Positions 4,284 to 28,452 of a stretch of 30,104 bases of DNA are shown piece by piece. This stretch comes from a virus. Made by a program: the position numbers and the translations under genes. The stretch covers positions 1-30,104 of IMG/VR virus record IMGVR_UViG_3300050120_000086, one strand, 5' to 3'. Positions within the stretch are counted from its first letter, which is position 1. The number at the start of each line of letters is the position of its first letter. Under the pieces are notes generated by a model. That model worked only from the letters and a program-made list of their open reading frames with translations, ran no database searches and was not told where the DNA came from.

Positions 4284-5009
4284 ATGGCAAAGAAATACGG
4301 TAACAGCACGGCGGCGAGCACTGCCAATGCATGGGATAAACATTGGAAGCCCAGCACTGCCAGTTGTTACGCCAGCCACCCAGCGCTGAAGTTTACGGGC
4401 ACGGATGGCGTGGAGTACAGTATCTATGGTGGCAATTGCAGCACGCCGGTCGTGCACGATGCGAATGTGTACGTGGGGTTCACCGGCATGAACGTCAGCA
4501 ATGGCAACCCGGCTTTCCCATGGGATGAGGGGTATGAGGCCACAGTCGTGGTGGATTACCCGATCACAGACATGAGTCCGCCGAGTGATCCAGTGTCATT
4601 CCACAAGTTGGTGGATTGGACGTGCAATCAATTGCGCGCTGGCAAGAAAGTCCATGGCGGGTGCCACGGTGGGCATGGTCGCACGGGCATGTGGCTGGTG
4701 GCGGTAGTGGCGCAAATGACTGGCATGAAGGACGCCATTCAGTACGTGCGCAAGAACTATTGCGAAAAGGCGGTCGAGACGTACAAACAGATCGACTTCC
4801 TGATGGCCGAATTTGGGGTGAGCAAGGCCGATGAAACGAAGAAATTCATTACCACCAAAACCAGTGCCACGCTGGCCGATGACTGGGATAAGTACAAGAC
4901 CAACGGCTATCAGGGCAGCAGCGGGTCGTCCGTTAAGTCCTCACCCGCGAATTTCCTGAATGCCACGCGGCACTTCAATGCAGTGGATTCGGTAAAGACC
5001 ATTTGGTAA
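4284..5009 (+). CDS. Cysteine-dependent (dual-specificity-like) phosphatase 2
   Basis: 241 residues. The P-loop GGCHGGHGRTG has nucleophile Cys127 and Arg133 (CX5RT). The flanking region (YVRKNYCEKAVETYKQ) matches the first phosphatase at 2402. An acidic stretch about 35 residues upstream (VVVDYPITDMSPPSD) could hold the general acid. The C-terminal 70 residues, including a Ser/Gly-rich linker, are specific to this copy. Codons at 4622-4637 overlap a near-perfect copy of the 16-bp inverted repeat. There is no promoter directly upstream, but the ribosome binding site still sits in a leader-type hairpin. Confidence 0.86.
   Translation: MAKKYGNSTAASTANAWDKHWKPSTASCYASHPALKFTGTDGVEYSIYGGNCSTPVVHDANVYVGFTGMNVSNGNPAFPWDEGYEATVVVDYPITDMSPPSDPVSFHKLVDWTCNQLRAGKKVHGGCHGGHGRTGMWLVAVVAQMTGMKDAIQYVRKNYCEKAVETYKQIDFLMAEFGVSKADETKKFITTKTSATLADDWDKYKTNGYQGSSGSSVKSSPANFLNATRHFNAVDSVKTIW
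4622..4637 (+). repeat. 16-bp inverted repeat, copy 3 (in phosphatase 2 gene)
   Basis: GTGCAATCAATTGCGC, 15 of 16; encodes NQLR in frame. Confidence 0.65.
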
Positions 5010-5014
5010 ACCAT

Positions 5015-5042
5015 TTGACAATCCTTATGCACGCTCTATAAT
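5015..5042 (+). promoter_or_regulatory. Promoter P3 (TTGACA-16-TATAAT)
   Basis: Perfect consensus hexamers: -35 at 5015-5020, -10 at 5037-5042, spacer 16. Drives the Gly-rich protein and probably the polymerase group behind it. Confidence 0.9.
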
Positions 5043-9584: not shown

Positions 9585-9730
9585 TGGAGAACTTTCTGGC
9601 ATATATGGTGTACAAGCGCAGTTGCCAGCGCGATCATTTCGAGCCAGTGTGCTACCGCACGTGGCTGCTCTATCACCTGCCGCTGCGCAATCAATTGCGC
9701 GAGGAAGACGATGATGACCAAGTGGGTTGA
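9584..9730 (+). CDS. Small protein, 48 aa
   Basis: TGATG overlap with the HNH gene and GGAGG at 9572-9576 give strong start support. The sequence is MENFLAYMVYKRSCQ at the N-terminus and an acidic run EEDDDDQ at the C-terminus. A perfect copy of the 16-bp inverted repeat lies inside the frame and encodes RNQLR. Unknown function. Confidence 0.62.
   Translation: MENFLAYMVYKRSCQRDHFEPVCYRTWLLYHLPLRNQLREEDDDDQVG
9685..9700 (+). repeat. 16-bp inverted repeat, copy 4 (perfect, in coding sequence)
   Basis: GCGCAATCAATTGCGC inside the 48-residue gene, encoding RNQLR. Confidence 0.9.
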
Positions 9731-10738: not shown

Positions 10739-10754
10739 GCGCAATCAATTGCGC
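10739..10754 (+). repeat. 16-bp inverted repeat, copy 5 (perfect)
   Basis: In the 77-base gap before the transposase-HTH gene. A weak promoter-like TTGACC (10700) with TAAAGT (10724) lies upstream. Confidence 0.9.
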
Positions 10755-11298: not shown

Positions 11299-11314
11299 GC
11301 GCAATCAATTGCGT
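11299..11314 (+). repeat. 16-bp inverted repeat, copy 6
   Basis: GCGCAATCAATTGCGT, 15 of 16, in the 99-base gap before the small terminase gene, next to an alternating GC run. Confidence 0.85.
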
Positions 11315-14277: not shown

Positions 14278-14293
14278 GCGCAATTGATTGCGC
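14278..14293 (-). repeat. 16-bp inverted repeat, copy 7 (perfect)
   Basis: TTGA orientation, in the 53-base gap before the gene at 14316. Confidence 0.9.
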
Positions 14294-15952: not shown

Positions 15953-15968
15953 ATGCAATCAATTGCGG
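15953..15968 (+). repeat. 16-bp inverted repeat, copy 8 (degenerate)
   Basis: ATGCAATCAATTGCGG, 13 of 16 with the core GCAATCAATTGC intact; 20 bases upstream of the -35 at 15989. Confidence 0.75.
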
Positions 15969-15988: not shown

Positions 15989-16016
15989 TTGACAATCGCA
16001 GTACACGCGCTATAGT
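15989..16016 (+). promoter_or_regulatory. Promoter P5 (TTGACA-16-TATAGT)
   Basis: -35 TTGACA at 15989-15994, -10 TATAGT at 16011-16016, 16-bp spacer. Drives the gene at 16053 and the cassette behind it. From 15989 to 16026 it is identical (38 bases) to the promoter at 26828. A degenerate inverted repeat lies 20 bases upstream. Confidence 0.87.
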
Positions 16017-16997: not shown

Positions 16998-17013
16998 GCG
17001 CAATCAATTGCGT
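16998..17013 (+). repeat. 16-bp inverted repeat, copy 9
   Basis: GCGCAATCAATTGCGT, 11 bases before the -35 at 17025. The stretch to the promoter (AGAATATTTATTTGAC) is shared with copy 13. Confidence 0.88.
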
Positions 17014-17024
17014 AGAATATTTAT

Positions 17025-17052
17025 TTGACTAACCGAGTAAACGCGCTATAGT
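17025..17052 (+). promoter_or_regulatory. Promoter P6 (TTGACT-16-TATAGT)
   Basis: -35 TTGACT at 17025-17030, -10 TATAGT at 17047-17052. Exactly 11 bases separate its -35 from the inverted repeat at 16998. Confidence 0.85.
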
Positions 17053-17066
17053 TTGGACATGCACAC

Positions 17067-17080
17067 GGGAACGGAGTCCC
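17067..17080 (+). promoter_or_regulatory. Leader hairpin displaying the ribosome binding site
   Basis: GGGA and TCCC pair around the loop ACGGAG (17071-17076), three bases before the ATG at 17084. Confidence 0.7.
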
Positions 17081-17083
17081 ATC

Positions 17084-17383
17084 ATGAAACTTACCGTCGA
17101 ACGCCATCAAGCAGTTGTCGAAGCCGGTTTGTCCCCCATGTTTTATAAAGGCAGAACCCCGGTGTACTCCACGCATCAAATCGATGCGGTGATCGAGAAG
17201 AAAGTGGCGGCAGAAGTGGCGGTCACCATGAAGGCCGACAGCGAGTATTTCACCAGTGCGGAGTTCCGTGAGGACGTGATGGATGAACTGATGAATGACG
17301 GCGCGACGTACGAACAGGCGTTCAACCGCACGCGCGATCAAGTCCGGTTGTTTGCCGAAGCCCGTACTCTCAACCTGATGTGA
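17084..17383 (+). CDS. Hypothetical protein, 99 aa, first gene of cassette
   Basis: Start fixed by the hairpin-borne ACGGAG. Mostly helical and charged (IDAVIEKKVAAEVAVTMKADSEYF); the first 30 residues (VVEAGLSPMFYKGRTPVYSTHQIDAVI) could be a small winged-helix-like unit, but this is weak. Unknown. Confidence 0.74.
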   Translation: MKLTVERHQAVVEAGLSPMFYKGRTPVYSTHQIDAVIEKKVAAEVAVTMKADSEYFTSAEFREDVMDELMNDGATYEQAFNRTRDQVRLFAEARTLNLM

Positions 17384-17389
17384 GAAACC

Positions 17390-17494
17390 ATGAAAAACAG
17401 TTGCTACTTGCATCACCGCGTCTGCCGGGGCACGCACAAGCTGCGTCTGCACGTCTGGCTTAGACAATCGAGACTCAATCATGCAGCCGCATGA
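17390..17494 (+). CDS. Possible 34-aa basic peptide
   Basis: ATG seven bases after the previous stop, with GAGAAACC as a weak ribosome site. The product is rich in His, Arg and Cys (SCYLHHRVCRGTHK). It overlaps the next micropeptide by 14 bases. Coding status uncertain. Confidence 0.35.
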   Translation: MKNSCYLHHRVCRGTHKLRLHVWLRQSRLNHAAA

Positions 17495-17564
17495 GTATGT
17501 GCTCACGCTCGTGGTGTTTCTCGCCACCGCGTATCTAACATGGCGTGCAGGCGAGCACGCATAG
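17481..17564 (+). CDS. 27-aa single-pass membrane micropeptide
   Basis: The product has one hydrophobic helix (YVLTLVVFLATAYLTW) flanked by short polar ends. The ribosome site is weak (GAGACT). It sits between two genes with no other coding explanation for this stretch and resembles the other micro-membrane genes of this region. Confidence 0.48.
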   Translation: MQPHEYVLTLVVFLATAYLTWRAGEHA

Positions 17565-17572
17565 GAGAAGCT

Positions 17573-17821
17573 ATGAAGATTTTCTCGTTGGTCATGAATC
17601 GCGATGGCGGTGATATCGACACCTTCAGTATGCGCGAGTACGAACAGGCAGTGCCCGAGGCCGAGCGGGTGGCTCAGCAGATGTTGCAGGCCATCGCACA
17701 AGAGGAGAAGTTGGCGCTGGACGCCCTGTCGTACCAACGGGTGGGTGAGTGCTGGGAGATTTATCAACACGATCAAGGCATGGTCGGGTACGTCAAGATT
17801 CATCACACGGAGTTGCGGTGA
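17573..17821 (+). CDS. Hypothetical protein, 82 aa
   Basis: AGGAG precedes the ATG at 17573. Helical middle (EAERVAQQMLQAIAQEEKLALDAL), then a short beta-like end (WEIYQHDQGMVGYVKI). Unknown. Confidence 0.72.
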   Translation: MKIFSLVMNRDGGDIDTFSMREYEQAVPEAERVAQQMLQAIAQEEKLALDALSYQRVGECWEIYQHDQGMVGYVKIHHTELR

Positions 17822-17961
17822 TGGACGCCACCGGGTTTAGCATTTCGTGCATTCCACTCGTAATGGGGTTGTTGTTTATGTTAGTGTGGGTGATGCCCAC
17901 GTGGGTATTCGTGCCGCTGTTTGCGGCCTACCTGTACTGGGCGCTGAAAGACGTGGGGTGA
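17821..17961 (+). CDS. 46-aa two-pass membrane protein
   Basis: TGATG overlap with the previous gene. Two hydrophobic segments (CIPLVMGLLFMLVWVM and WVFVPLFAAYLYWAL) are separated by Pro-Thr, with a KDVG tail. A holin-like size and shape, but no lysis genes are nearby to support that. Confidence 0.65.
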   Translation: MDATGFSISCIPLVMGLLFMLVWVMPTWVFVPLFAAYLYWALKDVG

Positions 17962-17964
17962 GCC

Positions 17965-18129
17965 GTGGAAGCGCAAGCGCATCAAGTAATGGCCGATGAC
18001 TTCGGCAATGCCATACAGCAGGCGCAGGTCAAGACCACGCTGTACATGGCCATGAGATTCTTATTCGAGGGCCGTGAAGACGAATTCTTCTGCGACCTCA
18101 CCACCAAGGTGTTGTATGGCGAACTCTGA
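17965..18129 (+). CDS. Hypothetical protein, 54 aa
   Basis: GTG start with GGGGTGA upstream, three bases after the previous stop. Helical N-terminus, acidic C-terminus (FEGREDEFFCDLTTK). Overlaps the next gene by 14 bases. Confidence 0.55.
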   Translation: MEAQAHQVMADDFGNAIQQAQVKTTLYMAMRFLFEGREDEFFCDLTTKVLYGEL

Positions 18130-18397
18130 GACGATGGACATAGCAGATGCGTGCGTGGTGTTCCGCGAGACCGTGCGGTACGAGCCAACCAAGAAGCGCG
18201 CTATCGCCCGCCACATGGTTAAGTCGCTGGCGGCGTTGGTGATAGAACTCGAAGCGCTGGAAGCCGTTGAGGAAACACTGGGAGTCGGTACATGCGCGTT
18301 GAACTGCCACACCCAGTGCAAGGCCGAATTACACGGTATGCCCAGCGAGTGCCGTAACTTGAATATGCGCAATCAATTGCGAGGCGATGGCACTTGA
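18116..18397 (+). CDS. Hypothetical protein, 93 aa, ending across an inverted repeat
   Basis: ATG at 18116 with AAGGTG upstream; ATG at 18134 is an alternative. A long helix (ARHMVKSLAALVIELEALEAVEETL) is followed by a Cys/His cluster (CALNCHTQCKAELHGMPSEC). The last codons read through the 16-bp repeat as RNQLR, and the TGA stop lies inside the -35 of the next promoter. Confidence 0.65.
   Translation: MANSETMDIADACVVFRETVRYEPTKKRAIARHMVKSLAALVIELEALEAVEETLGVGTCALNCHTQCKAELHGMPSECRNLNMRNQLRGDGT
18367..18382 (+). repeat. 16-bp inverted repeat, copy 10 (in coding sequence)
   Basis: GCGCAATCAATTGCGA, 15 of 16, encodes RNQLR near the end of the gene at 18116; 11 bases before the -35 at 18394. 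Confidence 0.88.
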
Positions 18398-18421
18398 CAA
18401 TCAGTTCATCAGTGCTATAGT
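18394..18421 (+). promoter_or_regulatory. Promoter P7 (TTGACA-16-TATAGT)
   Basis: -35 TTGACA at 18394-18399 overlaps the stop codon of the upstream gene; -10 TATAGT at 18416-18421. The repeat at 18367 ends 11 bases before the -35. Confidence 0.87.
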
Positions 18422-18437
18422 TCTTACATTGCTCAAC

Positions 18438-18451
18438 CCGAACGGAGTCGG
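18438..18451 (+). promoter_or_regulatory. Leader hairpin displaying the ribosome binding site
   Basis: CCGA and TCGG pair around the loop ACGGAG (18442-18447), two bases before the ATG at 18454. Confidence 0.7.
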
Positions 18452-18453
18452 AC

Positions 18454-18699
18454 ATGAGAACGCAAGCCCTTACGGCCATCACCTTCGCGCGCACGCACTT
18501 GCACAATGGTGCGGTCATGAGCACCAGCGCCACAGCCTGTTTCAATGACGCGGTTGACCGCTATCTTGATGCCGCAGACGCAGCCGCTTACATGTGGGCC
18601 TTCAAGTCACTGGCGTACAGCGTTGGCATTTTCCACCCCGATTACCAATACGTGAAGGCACTGGGAGACCAGTATGACCGTCAAAATCAACAGGGGTAG
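18454..18699 (+). CDS. Hypothetical protein, 81 aa, first gene of cassette
   Basis: Start set by the hairpin ACGGAG. Ala-rich helices and several aromatic residues (DRYLDAADAAAYMWAFKSLAYSVG is hidden partly within this stretch). No motif recognised. Overlaps the next gene by 26 bases. Confidence 0.72.
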   Translation: MRTQALTAITFARTHLHNGAVMSTSATACFNDAVDRYLDAADAAAYMWAFKSLAYSVGIFHPDYQYVKALGDQYDRQNQQG

Positions 18700-18889
18700 T
18701 ACCGAGCCGGTCTTCGCCTCGTACATCGAACGCGCCAAGTACAAGAAGGCGCTGGAGAAGGAAGCACGAGACGCTGAGAATGACCGGCAACACCCGCCAG
18801 CCCCTGCACGTAAGTCCTCGTTGGCTGAGCAGGAAGCGGCCATCAAATATTTCTTTGACCACTATGTTGGTCCCGGAGAGCTAACGTGA
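18674..18889 (+). CDS. Hypothetical charged protein, 71 aa
   Basis: GGGAG precedes the ATG. Lys/Glu-rich helix (YKKALEKEARDAENDR), a Pro-rich turn, then a short amphipathic end. Unknown. Confidence 0.68.
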   Translation: MTVKINRGSTEPVFASYIERAKYKKALEKEARDAENDRQHPPAPARKSSLAEQEAAIKYFFDHYVGPGELT

Positions 18890-19107
18890 GAGAACTCGTG
18901 GGGTTCGTTTGCATATTCGCTGCCAGCTTAAGTGCAAGTTGGTTCGGCAAGGGCTTCAGCATTGCCACGCGCGAGTGGTTCAAGCGGCACGACACCAAGC
19001 ACGAGCTAGACGACGATGGTCTGAAGTCCATCCAGCACGTCACGTGGGTGCTGTCGATAATCGTAATGGTGTTTGCCATCGCCCAACTGATCGAGGCCCT
19101 GCAATGA
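18886..19107 (+). CDS. 73-aa two-pass membrane protein
   Basis: GTG start in a GTGA overlap; CGGAG lies upstream. Hydrophobic segments at about residues 4-20 (LVGFVCIFAASLSASWF) and 51-72 (VTWVLSIIVMVFAIAQLI) flank a charged 30-residue loop. Size and topology resemble small phage membrane proteins, including superinfection-exclusion factors, but no specific match is claimed. Confidence 0.7.
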   Translation: MRELVGFVCIFAASLSASWFGKGFSIATREWFKRHDTKHELDDDGLKSIQHVTWVLSIIVMVFAIAQLIEALQ

Positions 19108-19286
19108 GTCAAGAAGAAGACTTGACGCTGGGCGGCTATCACACACAGCAGGAGGTTGACGAGGTGATTGCGTTCTTCGCCACCCTCACAGACGAGGAAC
19201 GGCAGGCCGCGAAAGTGTGCCGGTTCTTGGGCATGCCGCCGTTCATGGCGATGGAATTCCTGATTGACCAACGGAGAAACAAATGA
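19104..19286 (+). CDS. Hypothetical protein, 60 aa
   Basis: ATGA overlap with the membrane protein gene. Acidic N-terminus and helical body (DEVIAFFATLTDEERQAAKVC). Unknown; coupled on both sides. Confidence 0.65.
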   Translation: MSQEEDLTLGGYHTQQEVDEVIAFFATLTDEERQAAKVCRFLGMPPFMAMEFLIDQRRNK

Positions 19287-19546
19287 CAGCAGAAGAAATC
19301 AATAAATGTGCCGAGCAGTTTTGGAAGGACGTGGATGGAGTTGTTGACTACCCGGCGTTTGATGCGGTGGGGTTCGCCAATGCCATCCTTGAACCGGTCG
19401 AGGCCGAGCGTGAGATGTATAAGAAGAAGTTGGACGATCTGACAGCACAGGTGCTGAACTACGCACAGACAGTGCTGAAGGAAGTCGCGCATGAAGTGAA
19501 GTTTCAAGAAACACTGGCGGGGGGCGATCATGGGAAGTCTGTGTGA
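19283..19546 (+). CDS. Hypothetical protein, 87 aa
   Basis: ATGA overlap. A coiled-coil-like middle (VEAEREMYKKKLDDLTAQVL). No motif recognised. Confidence 0.7.
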   Translation: MTAEEINKCAEQFWKDVDGVVDYPAFDAVGFANAILEPVEAEREMYKKKLDDLTAQVLNYAQTVLKEVAHEVKFQETLAGGDHGKSV

Positions 19547-19991
19547 TTGGCTGGCTCGCATGTGCAAGCCCGAAGATGGCTCGTACAGCGATGCTCGGTT
19601 GAAGTCGGTCGCCAAGGAAGTGCTGGCTAACAAAAAGAAGCCTGATGACGACTACATGAAGACCTACTATCAGCACGAGTTGGACAGGATGATTCCCGAA
19701 GAAATCCGGCGCTTGCGTAAGCAACTGAGTACGGCGTTGCAAGAGCGCAAGACCTGTACCGAGCATGACTGGCGCGAGCAAGTGGGTAAGTTGCTGGCTG
19801 CACAGACGGCAGCGGTACAACAGCGAGTATCGGGAGTGAGCAACGACAGTGAGTTAGCCCGGTTGGTACAACGTAACTTGGACGAGGAATACCGTCGCCT
19901 GCGGTTCTTGTCATTCAGCAACATCGATCTGCCTGCGGACGTGGTGGCGGAGATTATGGCGAAGTACGAAGGGTATGGAGACGCGCCATGA
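19530..19991 (+). CDS. Coiled-coil protein, 153 aa
   Basis: Overlaps the previous gene by 17 bases; GGGGGCG lies upstream. Long charged helices (IPEEIRRLRKQLSTALQER, ARLVQRNLDEEYRRLRFL) suggest a coiled coil or helical bundle. Function unknown. Confidence 0.74.
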   Translation: MGSLCDWLARMCKPEDGSYSDARLKSVAKEVLANKKKPDDDYMKTYYQHELDRMIPEEIRRLRKQLSTALQERKTCTEHDWREQVGKLLAAQTAAVQQRVSGVSNDSELARLVQRNLDEEYRRLRFLSFSNIDLPADVVAEIMAKYEGYGDAP

Positions 19992-20194
19992 GCCGGTCCT
20001 TCGTACGCGCAGCCGCTCCAACCAGCATAGCCGGGTCGTTGATGGAAAACATACGGGTATGCAGGAATGACGGACTAAAGTCCGTGTTGGTGTACGAAGG
20101 ACCACGTTGGAAATGTGAGATGTACTGCACGACCATGAATTATCGGGTGGTGAGCGAGTTTGATGAAGTCTGGTACGTGGAGGCCCGAGAATGA
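19988..20194 (+). CDS. Hypothetical protein, 68 aa
   Basis: ATGA overlap. Beta-rich C-terminal two thirds (KSVLVYEGPRWKCEMYCTTM); two Cys close together. Unknown. Confidence 0.66.
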   Translation: MSRSFVRAAAPTSIAGSLMENIRVCRNDGLKSVLVYEGPRWKCEMYCTTMNYRVVSEFDEVWYVEARE

Positions 20195-20370
20195 AAGCCC
20201 TAGATAAGCTGATGTACTTCGTGGTGCACAGGATCGACAAGACAGTGCTGGCTGGATTCAAAGTTCAGATAGACGCCGAGTCGTTCTACTGGAGCCTGAA
20301 GACCGAACGCCAGTTCTACGCGGTATGGGATCGGCAACGGCTCAAGGAAGAAGGGCACGTGCGCAATTGA
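20191..20370 (+). CDS. Hypothetical protein, 59 aa, stop codon inside the inverted repeat
   Basis: ATGA overlap with the previous gene. The protein is mixed hydrophobic/charged (LDKLMYFVVHRIDKTVLAG). The TGA stop at 20368-20370 is the TGA of the repeat in its TTGA orientation, so the repeat ends the gene. Confidence 0.62.
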   Translation: MKALDKLMYFVVHRIDKTVLAGFKVQIDAESFYWSLKTERQFYAVWDRQRLKEEGHVRN

Positions 20371-20376
20371 TTGCGC
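20361..20376 (-). repeat. 16-bp inverted repeat, copy 11 (perfect, supplies a stop codon)
   Basis: GCGCAATTGATTGCGC; the TGA ends the gene at 20191. Confidence 0.9.
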
Positions 20377-20387
20377 GAGGAGAAGAA

Positions 20388-20564
20388 ATGAAATTCGCTG
20401 GAGTCCCCAAGGACAAAGTGCCTGAGCTAGTACGTGACCTACTGGCTTTCGAGTGGAAGACCGGGGTCGATCACGCGCAGGTGGGTAGTATAAGCATTGA
20501 GGTAGACCCACAAGACCTGACGCTGTACAACGTTGAGGCCGATGGTGTGGCCGAGGTGGGATGA
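20388..20564 (+). CDS. Hypothetical protein, 58 aa
   Basis: GAGGAG right after the repeat and 6 bases before the ATG. Helical first half, beta-like second half (VGSISIEVDPQDLTLYNV). Unknown. Confidence 0.66.
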   Translation: MKFAGVPKDKVPELVRDLLAFEWKTGVDHAQVGSISIEVDPQDLTLYNVEADGVAEVG

Positions 20565-20893
20565 TGGATTTAAAGAAGTTGTTCCTCCGCAGGCCGTGCG
20601 CGAACTGCCCGTTCAACAAAGTGAGAGCCATTGAGTTGAATCCGGGACGGGTTGAAGGAATCATTGACGACATGGTAGAGCATGACGACCGCCCGTTTTT
20701 GTGCCACAAGATGCTAGATCAAGATACGCGTTCGTACTGCACTGGCGCGGTCACGTACCTGCTGAAAGTCCGTCAGCCCAACATTGCAATGCGGCTTGGT
20801 GCAAGCCTGAAGATGTTCGACCCCGACCAAATGTTGTCTGAATGTGGGCAGGCAGTGATAGACCCGCCTGTCGAGAATAAAACATTTGACTAA
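20561..20893 (+). CDS. Cysteine-rich DUF6283-like protein, 110 aa
   Basis: Starts ATGATG overlapping the previous stop. CANCPFNK near the N-terminus, FLCHK in the middle and SYCTGAV after it form a Cys/His set seen in a phage family I take to be DUF6283, probably a metal or Fe-S site. The TAA stop lies in the next promoter's -35 region. The family call is by memory of its pattern. Confidence 0.76.
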   Translation: MMDLKKLFLRRPCANCPFNKVRAIELNPGRVEGIIDDMVEHDDRPFLCHKMLDQDTRSYCTGAVTYLLKVRQPNIAMRLGASLKMFDPDQMLSECGQAVIDPPVENKTFD

Positions 20894-20913
20894 CCCAGTA
20901 CGCGTGCTATAGT
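20886..20913 (+). promoter_or_regulatory. Promoter P8 (TTGACT-16-TATAGT)
   Basis: -35 TTGACT at 20886-20891 overlaps the upstream TAA stop; -10 TATAGT at 20908-20913. No inverted repeat is nearby. Confidence 0.85.
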
Positions 20914-20928
20914 TTGACCATACACCAC

Positions 20929-20940
20929 GGCATGGAGGCC
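20929..20940 (+). promoter_or_regulatory. Leader hairpin displaying the ribosome binding site (short stem)
   Basis: GGC and GCC pair around the loop ATGGAG (20932-20937), three bases before the ATG at 20944. Only three pairs, so weaker than its relatives. Confidence 0.5.
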
Positions 20941-20943
20941 AGT

Positions 20944-21153
20944 ATGTGTACCTATTTCAGTCTTACCGCAATGGCAGTAGACAACACGGTGGCAGTCACC
21001 GTCGAAGTCCAGCGCATTACCGACACCCAGTACGAAGACCTTGGAGACGAGGGCTGTCTGGCGTTGGCGCAGGAGTTCTGCGATGGCCGCGCGTGGGATT
21101 TCACCGGCTACAAGCTGGTGGAGATTGATGAATTCGGACAACCAACCCCGTAA
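20944..21153 (+). CDS. Hypothetical protein, 69 aa, first gene of cassette
   Basis: Start set by GGAGG at 20934. Begins MCTYFSLTAMAVDNTVAVTVEV, one long beta-like stretch, then an acidic helix. Unknown. Confidence 0.7.
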   Translation: MCTYFSLTAMAVDNTVAVTVEVQRITDTQYEDLGDEGCLALAQEFCDGRAWDFTGYKLVEIDEFGQPTP

Positions 21154-21161
21154 GGACAGCC

Positions 21162-21398
21162 ATGCAAGACCTACATCTGTTGCCCGAGGCCGTAGCTATC
21201 GGTATGACCGCCGAGGAAGGCGACCGACTCGGGTTGATCCGGGTCAAAGCCATGCTTGCCGCCAATGGTGGACCGGCAGTGAGCAAAGACGACATGAAGT
21301 TTGCGCTCGATCTGTTCGACCGGCTGACACCCGTTTGTGACTTCGATGAGGAAGTCCGCTGGAAGGCCACGTGTGCTCGCAAGGAGTTGGCATCATGA
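21162..21398 (+). CDS. Hypothetical protein, 78 aa
   Basis: AAGGAC precedes the ATG. Helical, with no membrane segment or motif recognised. Confidence 0.68.
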   Translation: MQDLHLLPEAVAIGMTAEEGDRLGLIRVKAMLAANGGPAVSKDDMKFALDLFDRLTPVCDFDEEVRWKATCARKELAS

Positions 21399-21610
21399 CC
21401 GGAGTTACGCCTTACGAAGTGCCGCCAGTGCTGCGGTTGCTGGCACAGAAGTACGCGTACCCGACTCCGCGTGAGCATGGGTTCAAGGCGTTCGGCACCG
21501 GCCATACCCTGTCGTACAACATGTACCTAAGCGGTAGTCTCAGTTGGCAGGAGTGGAATGATGGGTGGTACGCCGCCCAACGGGCTTATCAACAGCAGTA
21601 CATCCTTTGA
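21395..21610 (+). CDS. Hypothetical protein, 71 aa
   Basis: ATGA overlap, AAGGAG at 21380. Tyr/Trp-rich (LSYNMYLSGSLSWQEWNDGWY). Small phage proteins of this kind lack a known role. Confidence 0.66.
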   Translation: MTGVTPYEVPPVLRLLAQKYAYPTPREHGFKAFGTGHTLSYNMYLSGSLSWQEWNDGWYAAQRAYQQQYIL

Positions 21611-21617
21611 GGTGCGT

Positions 21618-21893
21618 ATGACCGAGCAAGTAAAACAGTTGACACCCGATGAACTGCGCGCCACAGCCGGTATCTCGGATGCAGACATGCAGGAGTTTTT
21701 CAAGGCATGGGCGAGTACGCGCATTGACATGCTGATGGGCCGCGACCCGAACATGGCGGCGTCCAAGGTAATCGTCAACCTGTGGGACAAAATCAAGCCG
21801 TACGTGCAGTCACCCGAGCCAGACCAACTGGTTATCATTGAGCGCATTCGTGAGCGGGTGCGGCTGTTCGACCTATCGTTGAAGGACGACTGA
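21618..21893 (+). CDS. Hypothetical protein, 91 aa
   Basis: TTGAGGTGCGT precedes the ATG at 21618; nearly the same ribosome-site sequence precedes the terminase-like fragment at 13675. Helical protein (LTPDELRATAGISDADMQEFF). Unknown. Confidence 0.7.
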   Translation: MTEQVKQLTPDELRATAGISDADMQEFFKAWASTRIDMLMGRDPNMAASKVIVNLWDKIKPYVQSPEPDQLVIIERIRERVRLFDLSLKDD

Positions 21894-22093
21894 TGCACGC
21901 CTGCCACGTTCGCCATCTGTTAGCCCATGTGCTGATGGCTGCGCCGTTGGCAGTGTGCATGGCAACTCACGCCGGTCATCAAGGCAGCATCGCGAACGCG
22001 CTCAAGCGCCGCCACAACTGGGAACACCATGTGCAGATCGAAGCACTGGTGCGCCACAATCACTTTCATGGAGGTGGTCATGGACAAGTGTAA
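21893..22093 (+). CDS. 66-aa His-rich protein with hydrophobic N-terminus
   Basis: TGATG overlap. A hydrophobic stretch (LLAHVLMAAPLAVCMA) could be a signal peptide or membrane anchor. After it come many His residues (RRHNWEHHVQ, RHNHFHGGGHG), possibly metal-binding. Unknown. Confidence 0.6.
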   Translation: MHACHVRHLLAHVLMAAPLAVCMATHAGHQGSIANALKRRHNWEHHVQIEALVRHNHFHGGGHGQV

Positions 22094-22196
22094 GTTGTAC
22101 GCGTGGGCAGTGATGATTGGTGGCGCTGCGCTTGCACTGGTAGGGCTTGCAGGTATGATCTACATTCTCACCGGTCACCCAGTGGTGGTGCTATGA
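22080..22196 (+). CDS. 38-aa single-pass membrane micropeptide
   Basis: GGAGG before the ATG at 22080, overlapping the previous gene. One helix (AWAVMIGGAALALVGLAGMI). The stop overlaps the next start, supporting translation. Confidence 0.6.
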   Translation: MDKCKLYAWAVMIGGAALALVGLAGMIYILTGHPVVVL

Positions 22197-22396
22197 CTGA
22201 ATTACGTTGGTTGATTAAAAAGAACTTGGACGTCACGGTAGACACCGTGTTGATGTACGCCGAGCGACACATGTGCACGATGAACGAAGCACGCGCTCGC
22301 ATGATTGACGAACGGCCCCCGGTTTTGCAGTACCGAGATGGCATGGGCTGTGAGTGGCAGGATGTTCCTACGGTAGTTGAACAGCACAAGGAGTAA
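22193..22396 (+). CDS. Hypothetical protein, 67 aa
   Basis: ATGA overlap with the micropeptide gene. Charged, no motif recognised (LRWLIKKNLDVTVDTVLMYA). Confidence 0.66.
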   Translation: MTELRWLIKKNLDVTVDTVLMYAERHMCTMNEARARMIDERPPVLQYRDGMGCEWQDVPTVVEQHKE

Positions 22397-22398
22397 CG

Positions 22399-22572
22399 AT
22401 GAACACGTTTCCCAAGGTGGTATTTGGCGTACTGGGGTTGCTGAATCTCGCCATCGCCACCAGCCCGTACTGGTCCCTCATTCCAATTTCCCCGTACGTG
22501 GGTGGGCTAAGTGGTTTTGCCTGTGGTATATCATTCGGGATGTTGTTTGCCAACCTGTGGAGTAAGAAATGA
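22399..22572 (+). CDS. 57-aa two-pass membrane protein
   Basis: AAGGAG before the ATG. Two hydrophobic segments (VVFGVLGLLNLAIA and GGLSGFACGISFGMLFANL) with a short Pro-containing loop, ending in Lys-Lys. The stop overlaps the next ATG. Unknown role. Confidence 0.65.
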   Translation: MNTFPKVVFGVLGLLNLAIATSPYWSLIPISPYVGGLSGFACGISFGMLFANLWSKK

Positions 22573-22874
22573 CCCCTCGCAACAAGAAGACTGGTATCGC
22601 AGCCGCAGTGGTCGCGTTGATCGCGCTGGGCATCTGGGGGGTCGATGAACTCACCAAGCCCGAAGTGCCGGTACAACATGTGCAGGTCAACACGCCGGTT
22701 GCCAGTGACTCGGTGCCCATGCCTGCATCGGACAGCGCGCCACCCCCGGTAGAGGCCGCACCAGCGCCAGCGCCTGCCGTAGCCAGCGCACCGGCTGACG
22801 CACCCGTGCTGGAGCAAAGCGCACCCGTAAGTCACGCGGGCCTGCCGACCGTTCACAAGAAGATTGGGGGCTGA
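22569..22874 (+). CDS. N-anchored Pro/Ala-rich protein, 101 aa
   Basis: A basic N-terminus (TPRNKKTG) leads into one membrane helix (IAAAVVALIALGIWGV), followed by about 70 residues dominated by Pro, Ala and Val that would extend into the periplasm. The layout recalls TonB linkers and some inner-membrane spanins, but no other lysis genes are seen here. Confidence 0.68.
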   Translation: MTPRNKKTGIAAAVVALIALGIWGVDELTKPEVPVQHVQVNTPVASDSVPMPASDSAPPPVEAAPAPAPAVASAPADAPVLEQSAPVSHAGLPTVHKKIGG

Positions 22875-22875
22875 T

Positions 22876-23103
22876 ATGGCCTCACCGTCTTACAAGGTGT
22901 ACGTCAAGCTGGGAGCCGGTTATGAAGACGGCACGTACTGTTGGGATGATCGCGCGGGCGAGACCCAGCAGCACGAGTTTCACACCGACAGCGAGGAAGA
23001 AGCACGGGCGTTCCGGGTGGGCATGAACCGGAGATACCCGGATGTTACGTACGAAGTGCAGTTGGTGGCTGAAGACGGTACGGTGCTGGATGTACTGCCA
23101 TGA
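22876..23103 (+). CDS. Hypothetical protein, 75 aa
   Basis: ATG at 22876 immediately after the previous stop, with GGGGG upstream. Beta-rich with an acidic helix (TDSEEEARAFRVGMN). Unknown. Confidence 0.68.
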   Translation: MASPSYKVYVKLGAGYEDGTYCWDDRAGETQQHEFHTDSEEEARAFRVGMNRRYPDVTYEVQLVAEDGTVLDVLP

Positions 23104-23177
23104 GCCACAATCTTAAACGTGCGCTCTGGTGGACGGCTTTCATCATGTTTTTAATCATTGTGGGGTGTTCGTTATGA
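23100..23177 (+). CDS. 25-aa membrane micropeptide, possible mini-lipoprotein
   Basis: ATGA overlaps both neighbours (23100 and 23174). A basic start (HNLKRALWW), a hydrophobic core, then IIVGCS, which could act as a lipobox with only three residues after it. Tiny but well embedded. Confidence 0.5.
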   Translation: MSHNLKRALWWTAFIMFLIIVGCSL

Positions 23178-23554
23178 AGAAGCTTTTGCTGGCTATGGTG
23201 TGTGGGGCTGCGTTGCTGGGCGGCTGCGATAACGATGCGAATGTGGTTAGCCAGAACCTGAGTACGGCGGCTGACAACTTCCAGATTCAACGCCGGATTG
23301 TGTTTTACAACACGATTTCCGACACGTACATGATGACCATCGAGGGACTGTGCTCGTTGGGCAACAGCGACAAGCAAGGTGAGTTGTCGGTGACTTGCCA
23401 AGTCGGTCCCTCGGAGTACAAGAAGCACTTCCTCGGCCTGAGCCGCAACGTCACGTATTTCGTGGAGCAGATGGACGGCGCGGCGGTGAGCAAGTACCAC
23501 TACATGGTGGTGTTCAAACCCAGCACGGTCATCCCTGATATCGCGGTGCATTGA
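23174..23554 (+). CDS. Phage beta-sandwich-type lipoprotein, 126 aa
   Basis: The signal peptide MKKLLLAMVCGAALLGGC ends in a lipobox with Cys18, so it is a predicted outer- or inner-membrane lipoprotein. The mature part (VSQNLSTAADNFQIQRRIVF, TIEGLCS, YKKHFLGLSRNVTYFVEQ, KYHYMVVFKP) matches a lipoprotein family common in phage genomes and labelled beta-sandwich lipoprotein. Surface lipoproteins of phages can block superinfection; that role is only an analogy. Confidence 0.83.
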   Translation: MKKLLLAMVCGAALLGGCDNDANVVSQNLSTAADNFQIQRRIVFYNTISDTYMMTIEGLCSLGNSDKQGELSVTCQVGPSEYKKHFLGLSRNVTYFVEQMDGAAVSKYHYMVVFKPSTVIPDIAVH

Positions 23555-23739
23555 TGGCCCGCGTAGACAGCGAGTACAGCCATTGGCCCGAGGAGCACCC
23601 GGAGTTATGCGTGTCGGGTGAGTCCTGCGGTGAAGCCCGGTGCGTGAAATGCGATGGCGGCGCATGGGACGTGGTGGAATGCAGTAAGTGCGGCAAGCAA
23701 CGCACCGTACCCTGTACGTTTGACGAGGATTACTCATGA
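23554..23739 (+). CDS. Zinc-ribbon small protein, 61 aa
   Basis: TGATG overlap. CVKCDGG followed by CSKCGKQ forms a two-knuckle zinc ribbon (CxxC twice), with three further Cys before and after. Unknown partner. Confidence 0.66.
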   Translation: MARVDSEYSHWPEEHPELCVSGESCGEARCVKCDGGAWDVVECSKCGKQRTVPCTFDEDYS

Positions 23740-23906
23740 ACTTGAATGACACGGTGAAGGAATACTACTTACACCAGTGCCGTAAGCACGATCTGGCACC
23801 GGACCCCGAGCAGTACGCGGTTGACCAGATAAACAGCATGTCCAACAATCATTTTCTGGCCGTTCTGAGTGATGCCCTAGAAGAGATGGGGGTGGGCCGT
23901 GAATGA
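23736..23906 (+). CDS. Hypothetical protein, 56 aa
   Basis: ATGA overlap. Helical and acidic (VKEYYLHQCRKHDLAPD, LAVLSDALEEMG). Unknown. Confidence 0.6.
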   Translation: MNLNDTVKEYYLHQCRKHDLAPDPEQYAVDQINSMSNNHFLAVLSDALEEMGVGRE

Positions 23907-24117
23907 AGACCTTGAAGGTTTTCTGGAATCCATGTGGATGGACATCGCGGTAGAACTGTCCTATCGTGAAGAAGGGGTTCGCAACGGCCACGTGATCGTC
24001 TGCGAGGAAGTACACAGTACTACCGAATGCCCGCGTTACTGCAAGTGGTACGTTGACGGCCAGTTGGTGGACTATCAAGACATCGAGGTGCTGGTGGACG
24101 CGCCACCTTGCAATTGA
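23899..24117 (+). CDS. Hypothetical acidic protein, 72 aa, stop inside the inverted repeat
   Basis: GTG start with GGGGGTGG upstream, overlapping the previous gene. Very acidic N-terminus. The TGA stop (24115-24117) is supplied by a repeat copy in TTGA orientation. Confidence 0.65.
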   Translation: MNEDLEGFLESMWMDIAVELSYREEGVRNGHVIVCEEVHSTTECPRYCKWYVDGQLVDYQDIEVLVDAPPCN

Positions 24118-24123
24118 TTGCGC
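24108..24123 (-). repeat. 16-bp inverted repeat, copy 12 (supplies a stop codon)
   Basis: TTGCAATTGATTGCGC, 14 of 16; its TGA ends the gene at 23899 and it abuts the promoter at 24127. Confidence 0.8.
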
Positions 24124-24126
24124 GCT

Positions 24127-24154
24127 TTGACAAACGCAGTACAGGTGCTATAGT
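24127..24154 (+). promoter_or_regulatory. Promoter P9 (TTGACA-16-TATAGT)
   Basis: -35 TTGACA at 24127-24132, -10 TATAGT at 24149-24154. A repeat copy ends three bases upstream of the -35. Its leader is the exception: AAAGGAG is present, but ACTC/GAGT would pair with part of it. Confidence 0.87.
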
Positions 24155-24178
24155 AGGATCACACTCAAAGGAGTAAGC

Positions 24179-24673
24179 ATGGCCCTCACTCGTGATATTC
24201 GTTTTCTCGTAGACCCGTATTTCAGTGGTGTGGGGCAGGGGGAAGTTACGCTTCGTAGCGACAACCCCGGCACCAGCATGAGCGCACACACGCACGGCAT
24301 TACCGACCCCGGTCATTGCCATCAGATCAGCGATCCCGGTCACAGTCATGGCTTGATTCCGATTGAAGAGTACCCGTTCTACAGTTCGGTGACGCACGGG
24401 GTTGACGTTGAACCGAAGTTCACTATCACCATGCCCAAGGGCCGTAAGACCACGGAGTACGACACGTACTTTGCGAAGCTGCGTGAGACCTTTGGTTTTC
24501 TCGACATAGAAACTGAAGTCGTCAAGCCCAAGTTGCTCGCACTGGATGTTCAATTGCACACGCACGAAGGTGGTACGTGGGCCAAGCCCGAAGTGAAAAA
24601 GCCGCACGTAGCCGGGTTAGATGCGGAGTCCATCAACTGGGATGAGCACCGGGCGTTCATGCGGGGTCTGTGA
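24179..24673 (+). CDS. Protein with His-rich tail-fibre/collar-like repeat, 164 aa
   Basis: AAGGAG at 24168 sets the ATG. Residues 38-61 hold the repeating motif HTHGITDPGHCH then ISDPGHSHG, which in phage tail fibres and collar domains forms metal-binding or turn structures. A second HTHEGG occurs near residue 130. The rest is unlike a fibre and the gene sits in the accessory region, first behind its own promoter. It may be a truncated structural protein or a metal-binding protein; no firm call. Confidence 0.75.
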   Translation: MALTRDIRFLVDPYFSGVGQGEVTLRSDNPGTSMSAHTHGITDPGHCHQISDPGHSHGLIPIEEYPFYSSVTHGVDVEPKFTITMPKGRKTTEYDTYFAKLRETFGFLDIETEVVKPKLLALDVQLHTHEGGTWAKPEVKKPHVAGLDAESINWDEHRAFMRGL

Positions 24674-24840
24674 TGCATTTTGATCAGTTCCTAGCTGACT
24701 GGTATAAGCATCACGGCGTCAGCATGACTCCACCAACGCCCAAAGAAGCATGGACTGCCGCGCTAGACGAGGCAATAAAGTTGGTGGAAACCCCTGCCGT
24801 TGCTGACTTTTGCCAGCGACAGTTATATCCGACAAAGTAA
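24673..24840 (+). CDS. Hypothetical protein, 55 aa
   Basis: TGATG overlap. Helical (FDQFLADWYKHHG, AWTAALDEAIKLVE), no motif recognised. Confidence 0.6.
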   Translation: MHFDQFLADWYKHHGVSMTPPTPKEAWTAALDEAIKLVETPAVADFCQRQLYPTK

Positions 24841-24890
24841 GGGCAACCGCGCAGAAGTAGTTGCTGCGCTCACCGCATTGAGGGACGGTC

Positions 24891-25439
24891 ATGAGTACCA
24901 TCCGTTTGGAGTACCACGAGATACGTGAGGTGTTCGAGCGTCACAACGAACGCATGAACAGCGCTGTCGCAGCGGAACTAGCTGACCTATCGTTGGCAAA
25001 GTACAGGGCTGCTGTTGCTCCGACCACTGGAAGCGCGCCGGTAGCTCTCGGCGAACTGGCTGGATGGTGCTTTCCATCAGGTGGTCGCACTCGCTTTGCA
25101 GACCAAGGCGATACGGTCGATCTGAGTCTTAAAGACGTGATGCGCCCGGTCTACTACGCCGCCCCTGCCAGTCCCGCCGCGACCACTGGAAGCGCGCCGG
25201 AGAAGCACAGTTCTGGATGCCAATGCCCCGCTTGCAACTGGGAGCGGAGTAACCCAGAGATTGCCATCACTGCCAGTCCCGCCGCGAGCGTGCTGACGGA
25301 TGAGCAAGTGCAAGCAGCTCGTATCGAGTGGTTCAGTGATAAATGGAACGAGTGTGAATTCGAGAACGTTGATGATTATTTCAACACTCGGATGCGTGCC
25401 GCCCTCCTTGCAGCGTCTATGGGCGGAGACGCCAAATGA
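24891..25439 (+). CDS. Ea22-like modular protein with internal repeats, 182 aa
   Basis: GAGGGA precedes the ATG. The N-terminus is helical, the middle is a Pro/Ala/Ser/Thr-rich region built from repeated units, and the C-terminus (LTDEQVQAARIEWF, TRMRAALLAA) resembles the end of Ea22-like phage proteins. A CQCPACNW motif could bind metal. The 21-bp DNA repeat (25021, 25180) and a 17-bp repeat (25166, 25271) show the middle grew by duplication. Function unknown. Confidence 0.75.
   Translation: MSTIRLEYHEIREVFERHNERMNSAVAAELADLSLAKYRAAVAPTTGSAPVALGELAGWCFPSGGRTRFADQGDTVDLSLKDVMRPVYYAAPASPAATTGSAPEKHSSGCQCPACNWERSNPEIAITASPAASVLTDEQVQAARIEWFSDKWNECEFENVDDYFNTRMRAALLAASMGGDAK
25021..25041 (+). 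repeat. 21-bp direct repeat, copy 1
   Basis: CGACCACTGGAAGCGCGCCG plus one G; the identical copy is at 25180-25200 in the same gene. Encodes a TTGSAP unit. Confidence 0.85.
25166..25200 (+). repeat. Overlapping repeat block in the Ea22-like gene
   Basis: Holds copy 1 of a 17-bp repeat (25166-25182, second copy 25271-25287) fused to copy 2 of the 21-bp repeat (25180-25200). Confidence 0.8.
25271..25287 (+). repeat. 17-bp direct repeat, copy 2
   Basis: TGCCAGTCCCGCCGCGA, identical to 25166-25182; encodes ASPAA. Confidence 0.8.
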
Positions 25440-25663
25440 AGTGCATCTTGTGTGCTGGCACCGGATGGGTATGCGAGTGGCACCTGAGTAAGCCTTGGGA
25501 AGGGCCGGGTGCGTGCGGGTGTGGTGGCGCTGGCACTAACTGCACGTGCAACCCAGAGGGGCAAGTCGATGACTCAGACTGGTTATATCTGGCTTCGGTT
25601 GACCCGGAGAAGCAAGCGGCGATTACCGCCACCAACGAAGCATTGAAGAAGGCGGTGAAATGA
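25436..25663 (+). CDS. Cysteine-rich zinc-binding phage protein, 75 aa
   Basis: ATGA overlap. CILCAGTGWVCEWH followed by CGCGGAGTNCTCN is the Cys pattern of a small protein family found in many phages and proteobacteria, with two CxxC-like knuckles. Metal binding is likely; function unknown. Confidence 0.74.
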   Translation: MKCILCAGTGWVCEWHLSKPWEGPGACGCGGAGTNCTCNPEGQVDDSDWLYLASVDPEKQAAITATNEALKKAVK

Positions 25664-25845
25664 GCAAGTATATTATTGGCGGTATGTTAGGGCTGGCGCT
25701 AGGGATTACCATGGGGTGCGTTATTCTGGTGTGGAACGACCACGAAGACAAGGCGTTCTACGCGCCCTTCGAAGGCAAAGTCTGCATGTCCGAGGAATGG
25801 CTGGAGAAACTTAACCTGACGCGCGGACGCCCGGAGGCCAAATGA
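25660..25845 (+). CDS. 61-aa membrane-anchored protein
   Basis: ATGA overlap. N-terminal hydrophobic helix (YIIGGMLGLALGITMGCVILVW) then a 37-residue soluble tail. Unknown. Confidence 0.68.
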   Translation: MSKYIIGGMLGLALGITMGCVILVWNDHEDKAFYAPFEGKVCMSEEWLEKLNLTRGRPEAK

Positions 25846-26183
25846 CCAAGAAGAAGTGGTTCGGCAGCGAGTTGATAGACAACGTACTGGCTCAGATTGG
25901 ACTGGGATCACCCTACCCGCCACGTGCGACACCCGAGATGTGGGAAGACATCAAAGAAATGCAGAACAACGCACGTGGTCCAGTGCCCCATGTCTATCAG
26001 TATCAAGACCTGTGGTGCTACAGAAACAGCATTGGCGCATCCTACGCGTTCACCAGTGTTAGTGCGATGTCCCGGCTGTACGAGCAGTACGAACCCAATC
26101 CCTGTTACTGGCGCAGCCTGCCAGCCACGTTCACGGGAATTCGCCCGCGTACGAGAATAGGCTATACCGGAGGTGAGAGATGA
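25842..26183 (+). CDS. Hypothetical protein, 113 aa
   Basis: ATGA overlap. Tyr/Pro-rich, no membrane segment; the C-terminus is basic (GIRPRTRIGYTGGER). Unknown. Confidence 0.72.
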   Translation: MTKKKWFGSELIDNVLAQIGLGSPYPPRATPEMWEDIKEMQNNARGPVPHVYQYQDLWCYRNSIGASYAFTSVSAMSRLYEQYEPNPCYWRSLPATFTGIRPRTRIGYTGGER

Positions 26184-26416
26184 CTTACGAAGAATGGATG
26201 GGCTACCGCACGAAGGCCAATGACATGTTCGGTGGGCTGGGTATGCCGTGCGACCGCGCCACGTACGATCACGAAGTCCAGTTGGGGTTGAAGGGCATGG
26301 GCGAGCGGTTCGTTGAGCAGTCCATGAAGCACGGGTACACCGTGACGGTGGCCGGTGGGCAAGTGGTGCTGGAGAAGGTTGAGCCAATGGGTGAAGCCGA
26401 CGAGGCCGCAACGTGA
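26180..26416 (+). CDS. Hypothetical protein, 78 aa
   Basis: ATGA overlap, GGAGGTGAG upstream. Ends with an acidic tail. No motif recognised. Confidence 0.7.
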   Translation: MTYEEWMGYRTKANDMFGGLGMPCDRATYDHEVQLGLKGMGERFVEQSMKHGYTVTVAGGQVVLEKVEPMGEADEAAT

Positions 26417-26799
26417 CTCCCACTCAGTGCGTGGCCGCACGGGCGTTGCTACGCTGGACGCAGAAAGACCTTGCACGCATGGCTAACCTGTCGTCCTCTG
26501 TGGTTGCGGACTTTGAACGCTGCGCTCGCACGCCCCTACGGATGTCCGTCGAGGAGATAGAACGTACGTTTATAAAGGCCGGTCTATCCTTCGTGAGTGG
26601 TGGCGTGGTGTGGGGCACCAGCGGTACGACCTTGCCGGGTATGTCTCCCGAGGCTGTAGACGCACTGACAGCCTACGTTGATGCCCGAGTTCATCAAGTT
26701 CTGGTTAGCCAGACACAAGGCGTGGCTGCACTGATGGACGCCGATGTTGAACACCGTAAGGCCAAAGACCGGCTGAGCAAGATCGCTCGTAACGACTGA
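26413..26799 (+). CDS. XRE-family helix-turn-helix regulator, 128 aa
   Basis: GTG start in a GTGA overlap. Residues 8-62 (ARALLRWTQKDLARMANLSS, VVADFERCARTP, IERTFIKAGLSFVSGG) are a standard XRE/Cro-type DNA-binding domain. A helical C-terminal half (AVDALTAYVDARVHQVL) could dimerise. It is the last gene before a repeat copy and promoter at 26828. A repressor acting on the repeats or promoters is plausible but unproven. Confidence 0.88.
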   Translation: MTPTQCVAARALLRWTQKDLARMANLSSSVVADFERCARTPLRMSVEEIERTFIKAGLSFVSGGVVWGTSGTTLPGMSPEAVDALTAYVDARVHQVLVSQTQGVAALMDADVEHRKAKDRLSKIARND

Positions 26800-26800
26800 T

Positions 26801-26816
26801 GCGCAATCAATTGCGG
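26801..26816 (+). repeat. 16-bp inverted repeat, copy 13
   Basis: GCGCAATCAATTGCGG, 15 of 16; 11 bases before the -35 at 26828, right after the XRE gene. Confidence 0.88.
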
Positions 26817-26827
26817 AGAATATTTAT

Positions 26828-26855
26828 TTGACAATCGCAGTACACGCGCTATAGT
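26828..26855 (+). promoter_or_regulatory. Promoter P10 (TTGACA-16-TATAGT)
   Basis: -35 at 26828-26833, -10 at 26850-26855. Identical over 38 bases to the promoter at 15989; the upstream repeat ends 11 bases before the -35. Confidence 0.88.
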
Positions 26856-26869
26856 TTGAACATGCACCT

Positions 26870-27755: not shown

Positions 27756-27783
27756 TTGACAAAACCAGCGGCAGTGTTATAGT
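27756..27783 (+). promoter_or_regulatory. Promoter P11 (TTGACA-16-TATAGT)
   Basis: -35 at 27756-27761, directly after the upstream stop; -10 TATAGT at 27778-27783. No repeat copy nearby. Confidence 0.86.
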
Positions 27784-28333: not shown

Positions 28334-28353
28334 GCCGCGTAGGATCATCAGGT

Positions 28354-28436: not shown

Positions 28437-28452
28437 GCGCAATCAATTGCAG
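28437..28452 (+). repeat. 16-bp inverted repeat, copy 14
   Basis: GCGCAATCAATTGCAG, 14 of 16, between tRNA-His and the DUF551-like gene. Confidence 0.8.

Follow-up and report, generated by a model that had tools for sequence, protein, structure and literature searches.

A symmetric DNA site ahead of strong promoters in a phage fragment and its relatives, with gp66 as the candidate protein that reads it

What reads the short palindromic repeat that stands ahead of strong promoters in the 30,104-base virus fragment IMGVR_UViG_3300050120_000086 (the whole stretch analyzed here, called the window), and what does the reader do to transcription? An earlier note on this DNA had described cassettes with a fixed distance between repeat and promoter and had proposed a bound protein that contacts RNA polymerase from one face of the helix, as activator or repressor. 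Analysis of the window and its relatives favors, at slightly better than an even chance, a reading in which the repeat is one of tens of sites for a regulator of the type of gp66, a protein of Stenotrophomonas phage DLP5, that would both repress promoters and silence or organize the whole genome; we infer both binding and repression from sequence patterns and a structural model.

The repeat was resolved into a 14-base-pair (bp) dyad, (C/T)GCAAT-YR-ATTGC(G/A), present in 14 copies, most with outer C:G. When up to two mismatches were allowed, the window held 14 matches, compared to a mean of 1.5 in shuffled sequences, and none of 100 shuffles reached 14. GCAAT-YR-ATTGC was the commonest dyad with 5-bp arms both in the window and in G001, a 99,510-base IMG/VR contig. 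The central step read CA in nine window copies and TG in five (19 and 23, respectively, in G001), which is one site read from either strand. An RNA hairpin is disfavored, as only Y-R centers, nearly all CA or TG, were found in the window, G001, and three Stenotrophomonas phages, consistent with a DNA site that can be read either way.

Promoters in the window were defined as TTGAC(A/T)-N16-TATA(G/A/C)T, and the scan returned nine matches on the plus strand and none on the minus strand. Five of the nine had a dyad 0 to 30 bp upstream, a number reached in 0 of 20,000 trials in which the 14 sites were placed at random. The five cassettes comprise the following features, with dyads given without strand.

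15954..15967, dyad TGCAATCAATTGCG; −35 at 15989 lies 21 bp downstream
15989..16016, plus strand, promoter TTGACA-N16-TATAGT; dyad upstream, gap 21 bp
16999..17012, dyad CGCAATCAATTGCG; −35 at 17025 lies 12 bp downstream; cassette duplicated at 26801
17025..17052, plus strand, promoter TTGACT-N16-TATAGT; dyad upstream, gap 12 bp
18368..18381, dyad CGCAATCAATTGCG; −35 at 18394 lies 12 bp downstream
18394..18421, plus strand, promoter TTGACA-N16-TATAGT; dyad upstream, gap 12 bp
24109..24122, dyad TGCAATTGATTGCG; −35 at 24127 lies 4 bp downstream; overlaps a gene end and supplies its TGA stop
24127..24154, plus strand, promoter TTGACA-N16-TATAGT; dyad upstream, gap 4 bp
26802..26815, dyad CGCAATCAATTGCG; −35 at 26828 lies 12 bp downstream; copy of the 16999 cassette
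26828..26855, plus strand, promoter TTGACA-N16-TATAGT; dyad upstream, gap 12 bp

The other four promoters are of the same type and lack a dyad.

3150..3177, plus strand, promoter without dyad
5015..5042, plus strand, promoter without dyad
20886..20913, plus strand, promoter without dyad
27756..27783, plus strand, promoter without dyad

The gaps of 20, 11, 11, 3, and 11 bp given in the earlier note are real and were counted from a 16-bp unit; the 14-bp dyad gives 21, 12, 12, 4, and 12 bp. Likewise, the association of repeat and promoter was above chance, but the note had omitted the four promoters without a dyad and the 9 of 14 dyads that have no promoter within 30 bp. The three equal gaps were confirmed but are weakened as evidence on closer reading. 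The probability of at least three equal gaps among five was 0.01, but the cassettes at 17025 and 26828 are copies, so that their equal gaps represent one event, and with the duplicate counted once the probability of at least two among four was 0.18. The duplication spans 16998-17064 and 26801-26867 (90% over 67 nucleotides), ahead of different genes, and 26 of 27 bases are identical from the site to the −35, versus 9 of 40 immediately upstream. Finally, the two remaining gaps had been described as roughly a helical turn more or less, but steps of 8 and 9 bp fall 1.5 to 2.5 bp short of a turn.

Spacing was then pooled from three sources, namely the window, full-length relatives, and loci from IMG/VR, with nine loci that duplicated others removed. 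Among 62 promoter-dyad pairs within 75 bp, the dyad lay 0 to 48 bp upstream in 57 and 45 to 69 bp downstream in 5, and no pair fell between the two groups (gap −44 to 0), such that the core promoter was never overlapped. The most common gap was 8 bp (12 pairs), and 27 of the 57 upstream gaps were 5 to 9 bp. Of the 19 promoters of the window type in G001 alone, 8 were preceded by a dyad, at distances of 7, 8, 6, 19, 7, 6, 7, and 17 bp. A Rayleigh test for a 10.5-bp period gave a p of 5e-4 for all 57 gaps and a p of 0.57 for the 25 gaps of at least 10 bp, values that are optimistic because related phages are not independent. The periodic signal thus disappeared once the main peak at 5 to 9 bp was removed, and helical phasing of the dyad relative to the −35 was rejected. 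We conclude that the preferred distance is real and that helical phasing is unsupported. The sequence is most naturally read as a binding site immediately ahead of the −35 whose bound protein influences RNA polymerase; the upstream position supports that part of the earlier proposal, but contact from one face is unsupported and most dyads are not linked to a promoter.

One mode of action that the earlier note had allowed is activation: the protein would recruit RNA polymerase from a dyad centered about 50 bp ahead of the start. Activation would be consistent with a dyad that is nearly always upstream, often at 5 to 9 bp, and never within the core. We nonetheless consider an activator unlikely, as the promoters are near consensus (TTGACA/TATAGT) and would be expected to fire without much assistance, a dyad is missing from 4 of 9 in the window and 11 of 19 in G001, the majority of dyads are promoter distant, and gaps vary from 1 to 48 bp, the window's usual 12 bp being itself atypical and about 4 bp off the family mode.

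The most likely binder of the dyad is the product of gp66 (DLP5 47761-48564; 267 amino acids; phrog_17202, function unknown). In a family matrix, all full-length dyad genomes tested encoded gp66. Across 72 gp66 loci, 431 GCAA-N4-TTGC dyads were found versus 17 control matches, and at least three dyads occurred in 56 of the 72 loci versus 0 of 72 in the control. Moreover, the dyads gathered at the gene itself: in the 66 of 72 loci used, the 300 bp ahead of the gp66 frame held 25 dyads versus 0 to 16 in other 300-bp bins, and a dyad lay near the gp66 start in 11 of 16 genomes. Some start distances of −2 are artifacts of the frame finder, which began the frame at a TTG inside the dyad. Read by hand, the gap from the gp66 dyad to the −35 was 8 bp in DLP5, DLP3, Summit, VH2_2019, PG28, V-YDF132, KarBoss, and RcZahn, 7 bp in G001, 9 bp in RcTiptonus, and 11 bp in JP1. 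No full dyad was found at the gp66 start of 29Fa.3, ValSw4_1, VhaS-a, TM16, or Y1_11. The promoter-proximal sites suggest that gp66 is apparently autoregulated. Second to gp66 in positional conservation was the prohead protease gene, with a dyad at its start in 10 of 14 genomes (DLP5, L012:3264-3277, and nine others).

Two other candidate binders were rejected. A ParB_N protein (DLP5 gp114) was first favored and was dropped because 29Fa.3 and ValSw4_1 have 20 to 21 dyads without ParB_N and because two ParB_N-bearing Arthrobacter phages have no dyads; a separate ParB_N protein is common in dyad phages and not universal. The XRE-type genes of the window (26413-26799 and 29679-29900) gave only weak HTH_3 matches, and gp66 tracks the dyads better. 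The first of these small genes ends directly ahead of the dyad at 26802.

Dyads are distributed over entire genomes and do not depend on promoters of the window type. With outer T:A, the dyad ranked first in G001 (42 copies), and its copies in DLP5 (28), DLP3 (25), and Summit (27) were matched in count solely by the overlapping form TGCAA-N4-TTGCA, which leads among dyads in DLP5, DLP3, Summit, RcZahn, and TM16. Totals ranged from 14 in the window to 25 to 42 in close full-length relatives. Strict-type promoters on the plus strand were absent from DLP5, Summit, RcZahn, and TM16, with one weak match in DLP3, and the dyads are therefore independent of such promoters. Spacing between dyads was even, with a coefficient of variation of 0.47 to 0.59 versus 0.90 to 0.97 for random placement in the window, G001, DLP5, DLP3, and Summit (P of at most 0.003, except for the window with P = 0.028); evenness was not significant in RcZahn or TM16.

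Conservation likewise pointed to the DNA site. In DLP5, 19 of 28 dyads were wholly coding and 9 were not, an intergenic excess with a p of 6e-6. For the spacing and conservation tests, 27 of the 28 DLP5 sites were kept, one at the record end being dropped. Between DLP5 and DLP3, 20 of 26 aligned sites were identical versus 15.9% of 2,088 frame-matched control windows, and between DLP5 and Summit, 26 of 27 were identical versus 34.7% of 2,214 control windows. In one nonidentical DLP3 site, both central bases had changed from CA to TG, which is the same dyad from the other strand. Between phages, the outer bases vary on both sides together, and the window sites 891 and 4623 stand at DLP5 places with outer bases changed, on both sides at 891. 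We read the pattern as a symmetric DNA site maintained by selection.

The dyad was also found beyond the close relatives. TGCAA-N4-TTGCA with lineage-specific centers occurred in Rhizobium phages TM16 and Y1_11, Rhodobacter phages RcTiptonus and RcZahn, Agrobacterium phage JP1, and several Vibrio phages; VhaS-a and KarBoss had only 6 and 8 dyads, and R21Y and two Arthrobacter phages had no such leading dyad. The GC-rich repeats of loci L171 and L145 are long repeats and were excluded. Plasmid p7 of Rhizobium bangladeshense (L176; NZ_CP071625.1; 109,431 bp, circular) carried 42 dyads, one of them, as read by hand, 8 bp ahead of the −35 at a gp66-like gene. The plasmid is typed as nonmobilizable and has a phage-like replication module, and that module, the gp66-like gene, and the dyads indicate that p7 is probably a phage-plasmid. 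In a Burkholderiaceae assembly of 4.8 Mb, 14 of 15 TGCAA-N4-TTGCA matches fell on one 95,965-base contig, and the dyads therefore belong to a phage replicon. Such replicon-specific occurrence disfavors a host factor as the binder.

Tens of evenly spread sites recall the stoperators of cluster A mycobacteriophages (L5 and Bxb1), which are genome-wide, with phage-specific motif variants and a conserved site near the repressor gene (PMC6550527). The dyads are alike in being genome-wide, in having phage-specific variants of one motif, and in the conserved site by the gene of the candidate regulator. If the dyads were stoperators, the bound protein would block elongating RNA polymerase and keep a prophage silent, and proximity to promoters would be incidental to crowded intergenic gaps. 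Extrachromosomal relatives would fit, as DLP5 is reported to exist as a phagemid (PMC5834331) and p7 carries both a gp66-like gene and 42 dyads. Known stoperators, however, are described in the source on cluster A (PMC6550527) as asymmetric and predominantly of one orientation, unlike the symmetric dyads with their mixed CA/TG centers, and stoperators would leave the preferred 8-bp gap to the −35 unexplained. We consider pure stoperator action improbable.

An AlphaFold2 model of gp66, built from 51 sequences with a mean predicted local distance difference test score (pLDDT) of 80.9, was compared to known structures. The best Protein Data Bank (PDB) matches of residues ~43 to 167 were Spo0J-parS (Z 9.9), ParB-parS (Z 9.0), and Noc-NBS (Z 8.8), and the structure of the KorB DNA-binding domain with its operator (1r71) scored Z 7.0. 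In the model, the central domain of gp66 thus most resembles DNA-binding domains of the ParB/Noc/KorB type. The helix that would read DNA was chosen from the fold match and is putative, and it was compared to half-sites after 10 near-duplicates and genomes with a top half-site count below 5 were excluded. Residues 98 to 101 were altered in 5 of 8 loci with non-TGCAA half-sites versus 7 of the 58 remaining loci (Fisher p 0.004; a post hoc value, uncorrected for descent). Half-site and putative recognition helix were paired as CGCAAT with KRKAD/E (L103 and L093), GGCAAT with DRTIR (L124), TCCAAT with RSKAF (L144), and TGCACT with KRKAF (L123). Exceptions were L121, L109, RcTiptonus, and the Reyranella loci L173 and L174, in which the top half-site may be unrelated.

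A ParB/Noc-type fold also raises the possibility that the dyads are centromere-like or Noc-like sites, at which a protein condenses, segregates, or positions a phage-plasmid genome and regulation is secondary. NBS sites of Noc are many and are scattered over the Bacillus chromosome, and they too are palindromic; very even spacing, selected intragenic sites, and a relative in the plasmid state are consistent with such a role. We consider it quite unlikely that this role is primary. Unlike NBS, the dyads lie on a phage genome and are promoter linked, strongly so in the window and at gp66, and gp66 lacks a CTPase domain. Moreover, a PF13614 ParA-type ATPase, as expected of type I ParABS, scored over the cutoff in 0 of 15 genomes or records (controls, 14 of 14; the search covered this ParA family), and ParB_N is not universal.

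The arrangement resembles most closely that of KorB and its OB sites in the IncP plasmid RK2. Palindromic sites on one replicon are both promoter proximal and distal: OB sites precede their promoters by either 4 to 10 bp or 45 to >1,000 bp, and KorB at an OB that ends 4 bp ahead of a −35 represses 4- to 5-fold (PMC11790492). Here, 27 of 57 pooled gaps are 5 to 9 bp, those in the window are 4, 12, 12, 12, and 21 bp, and most other dyads are distal. The candidate binder would have a ParB-class DNA-binding domain as KorB does, judging from the model. Unlike KorB, gp66 has no detected ParB_N/CTPase domain in 14 members, and the dyads differ in sequence from OB and number 25 to 42 in close full-length relatives and p7. 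We therefore do not claim that gp66 belongs to the KorB family and propose only that it most likely works in a KorB-like way, by analogy. Repression combined with silencing or organization is favored because promoter-abutting dyads, apparent gp66 autoregulation, and distal sites match the KorB/RK2 layout.

Under the favored combination, the operator would be two-fold symmetric, with half-site YGCAAT and a flexible Y-R center step; the cognate dyad of DLP5 gp66 would be TGCAATCAATTGCA and the window form CGCAATCAATTGCG. The evenly scattered sites, tens per genome, would all serve one phage-encoded regulator, most likely of the gp66 family, which in the window phage would be encoded on the missing part of its genome. 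A dimer at a dyad a few bp upstream of a strong sigma-70 −35, that of gp66 included, would turn the promoter down, and at promoter-distant sites the same regulator would silence, block, or organize the rest of the genome. More tentatively, and with the balance of our judgment against it, gp66 may represent a binder of the ParB/Noc/KorB type without its own CTPase that, throughout the phage family, uses one set of evenly spaced palindromes, many of them intragenic, both to repress its own and other promoters, bound about 8 bp ahead of the −35, and to organize the whole genome, protein and site diverging in step from one lineage to another.

Several observations weigh against gp66 and against repression. 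The window fragment has no gp66, and replication genes were likewise encoded by all of the full-length dyad genomes tested, such that the presence of gp66 alone is not decisive. A counterexample is an Azospirillum genome of 6.1 Mb that carries a gp66-like gene and only 5 copies of TGCAA-N4-TTGCA. The unrelated protein Raf1 scored Z 7.9 against the gp66 model, Foldseek alone returned no PDB match at E ≤ 0.001, the gp66 sequence profile gave no convincing PDB match, and no HTH_ParB match was found in 7 genomes. A Pfam scan of 14 gp66 members found no ParB_N domain, and KorB-like CTP-driven sliding is therefore not to be assumed; no ParB_N was detected in 29Fa.3, ValSw4_1, or the L124 phage, all of which carry dyads. 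The covariation of helix and half-site was found post hoc and is drawn from related sequences that are not independent, and in RcTiptonus the alignment shows a change at residue 99 although TGCAAT is retained. Overlap with the core promoter is the more common arrangement for repressors, and no dyad here has it. Finally, RcZahn, with few dyads, was judged virulent (PMC8601537), and silencing of a lysogenic prophage is therefore not the sole role.

The kinase and DNA polymerase genes of the window are 46 to 50% identical to their DLP5 counterparts. The large terminases of the window (11374-13667) and of DLP5 are not closely related, and the closest match to the window terminase is that of G001 (73%); the different affinities suggest a module swap. 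The nine window dyads that lie apart from promoters are as follows, again without strand.

891..904, dyad CGCAATTGATTGCG, within the PPDK-like kinase gene; position matches DLP5 dyad 86707, both outer bases differ
2335..2348, dyad, intergenic; no near-consensus promoter adjoining
4623..4636, dyad TGCAATCAATTGCG, within a coding gene; position matches DLP5 dyad 90558
9686..9699, dyad, intergenic by open reading frame tiling
10740..10753, dyad, intergenic
11300..11313, dyad, intergenic; ahead of the gene for the small terminase subunit
14279..14292, dyad, intergenic; from stop codon to next start
20362..20375, dyad, overlaps a gene end, its TGA being that gene's stop codon; next ribosome site directly after
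28438..28451, dyad CGCAATCAATTGCA, flanked by tRNA-His and the gene at 28473

Genes for tRNA-Cys and tRNA-His at 28250-28426 stand directly ahead of the last of these dyads.

No account of these dyads was found in searches of the open-licence literature or in passages of the DLP3 paper and the R. capsulatus phage paper; exact motif strings led to one unrelated paper. If the favored reading is true, a broad group of phages and phage-plasmids of ~80 to 110 kb, whose regulation is little described, would gain a common control element together with a named candidate for its reader, and many conserved palindromes within their genes would be explained. The family would also provide a testable case in which operator and reader change together and in which a ParB-class DNA-binding domain is used without a CTPase domain.

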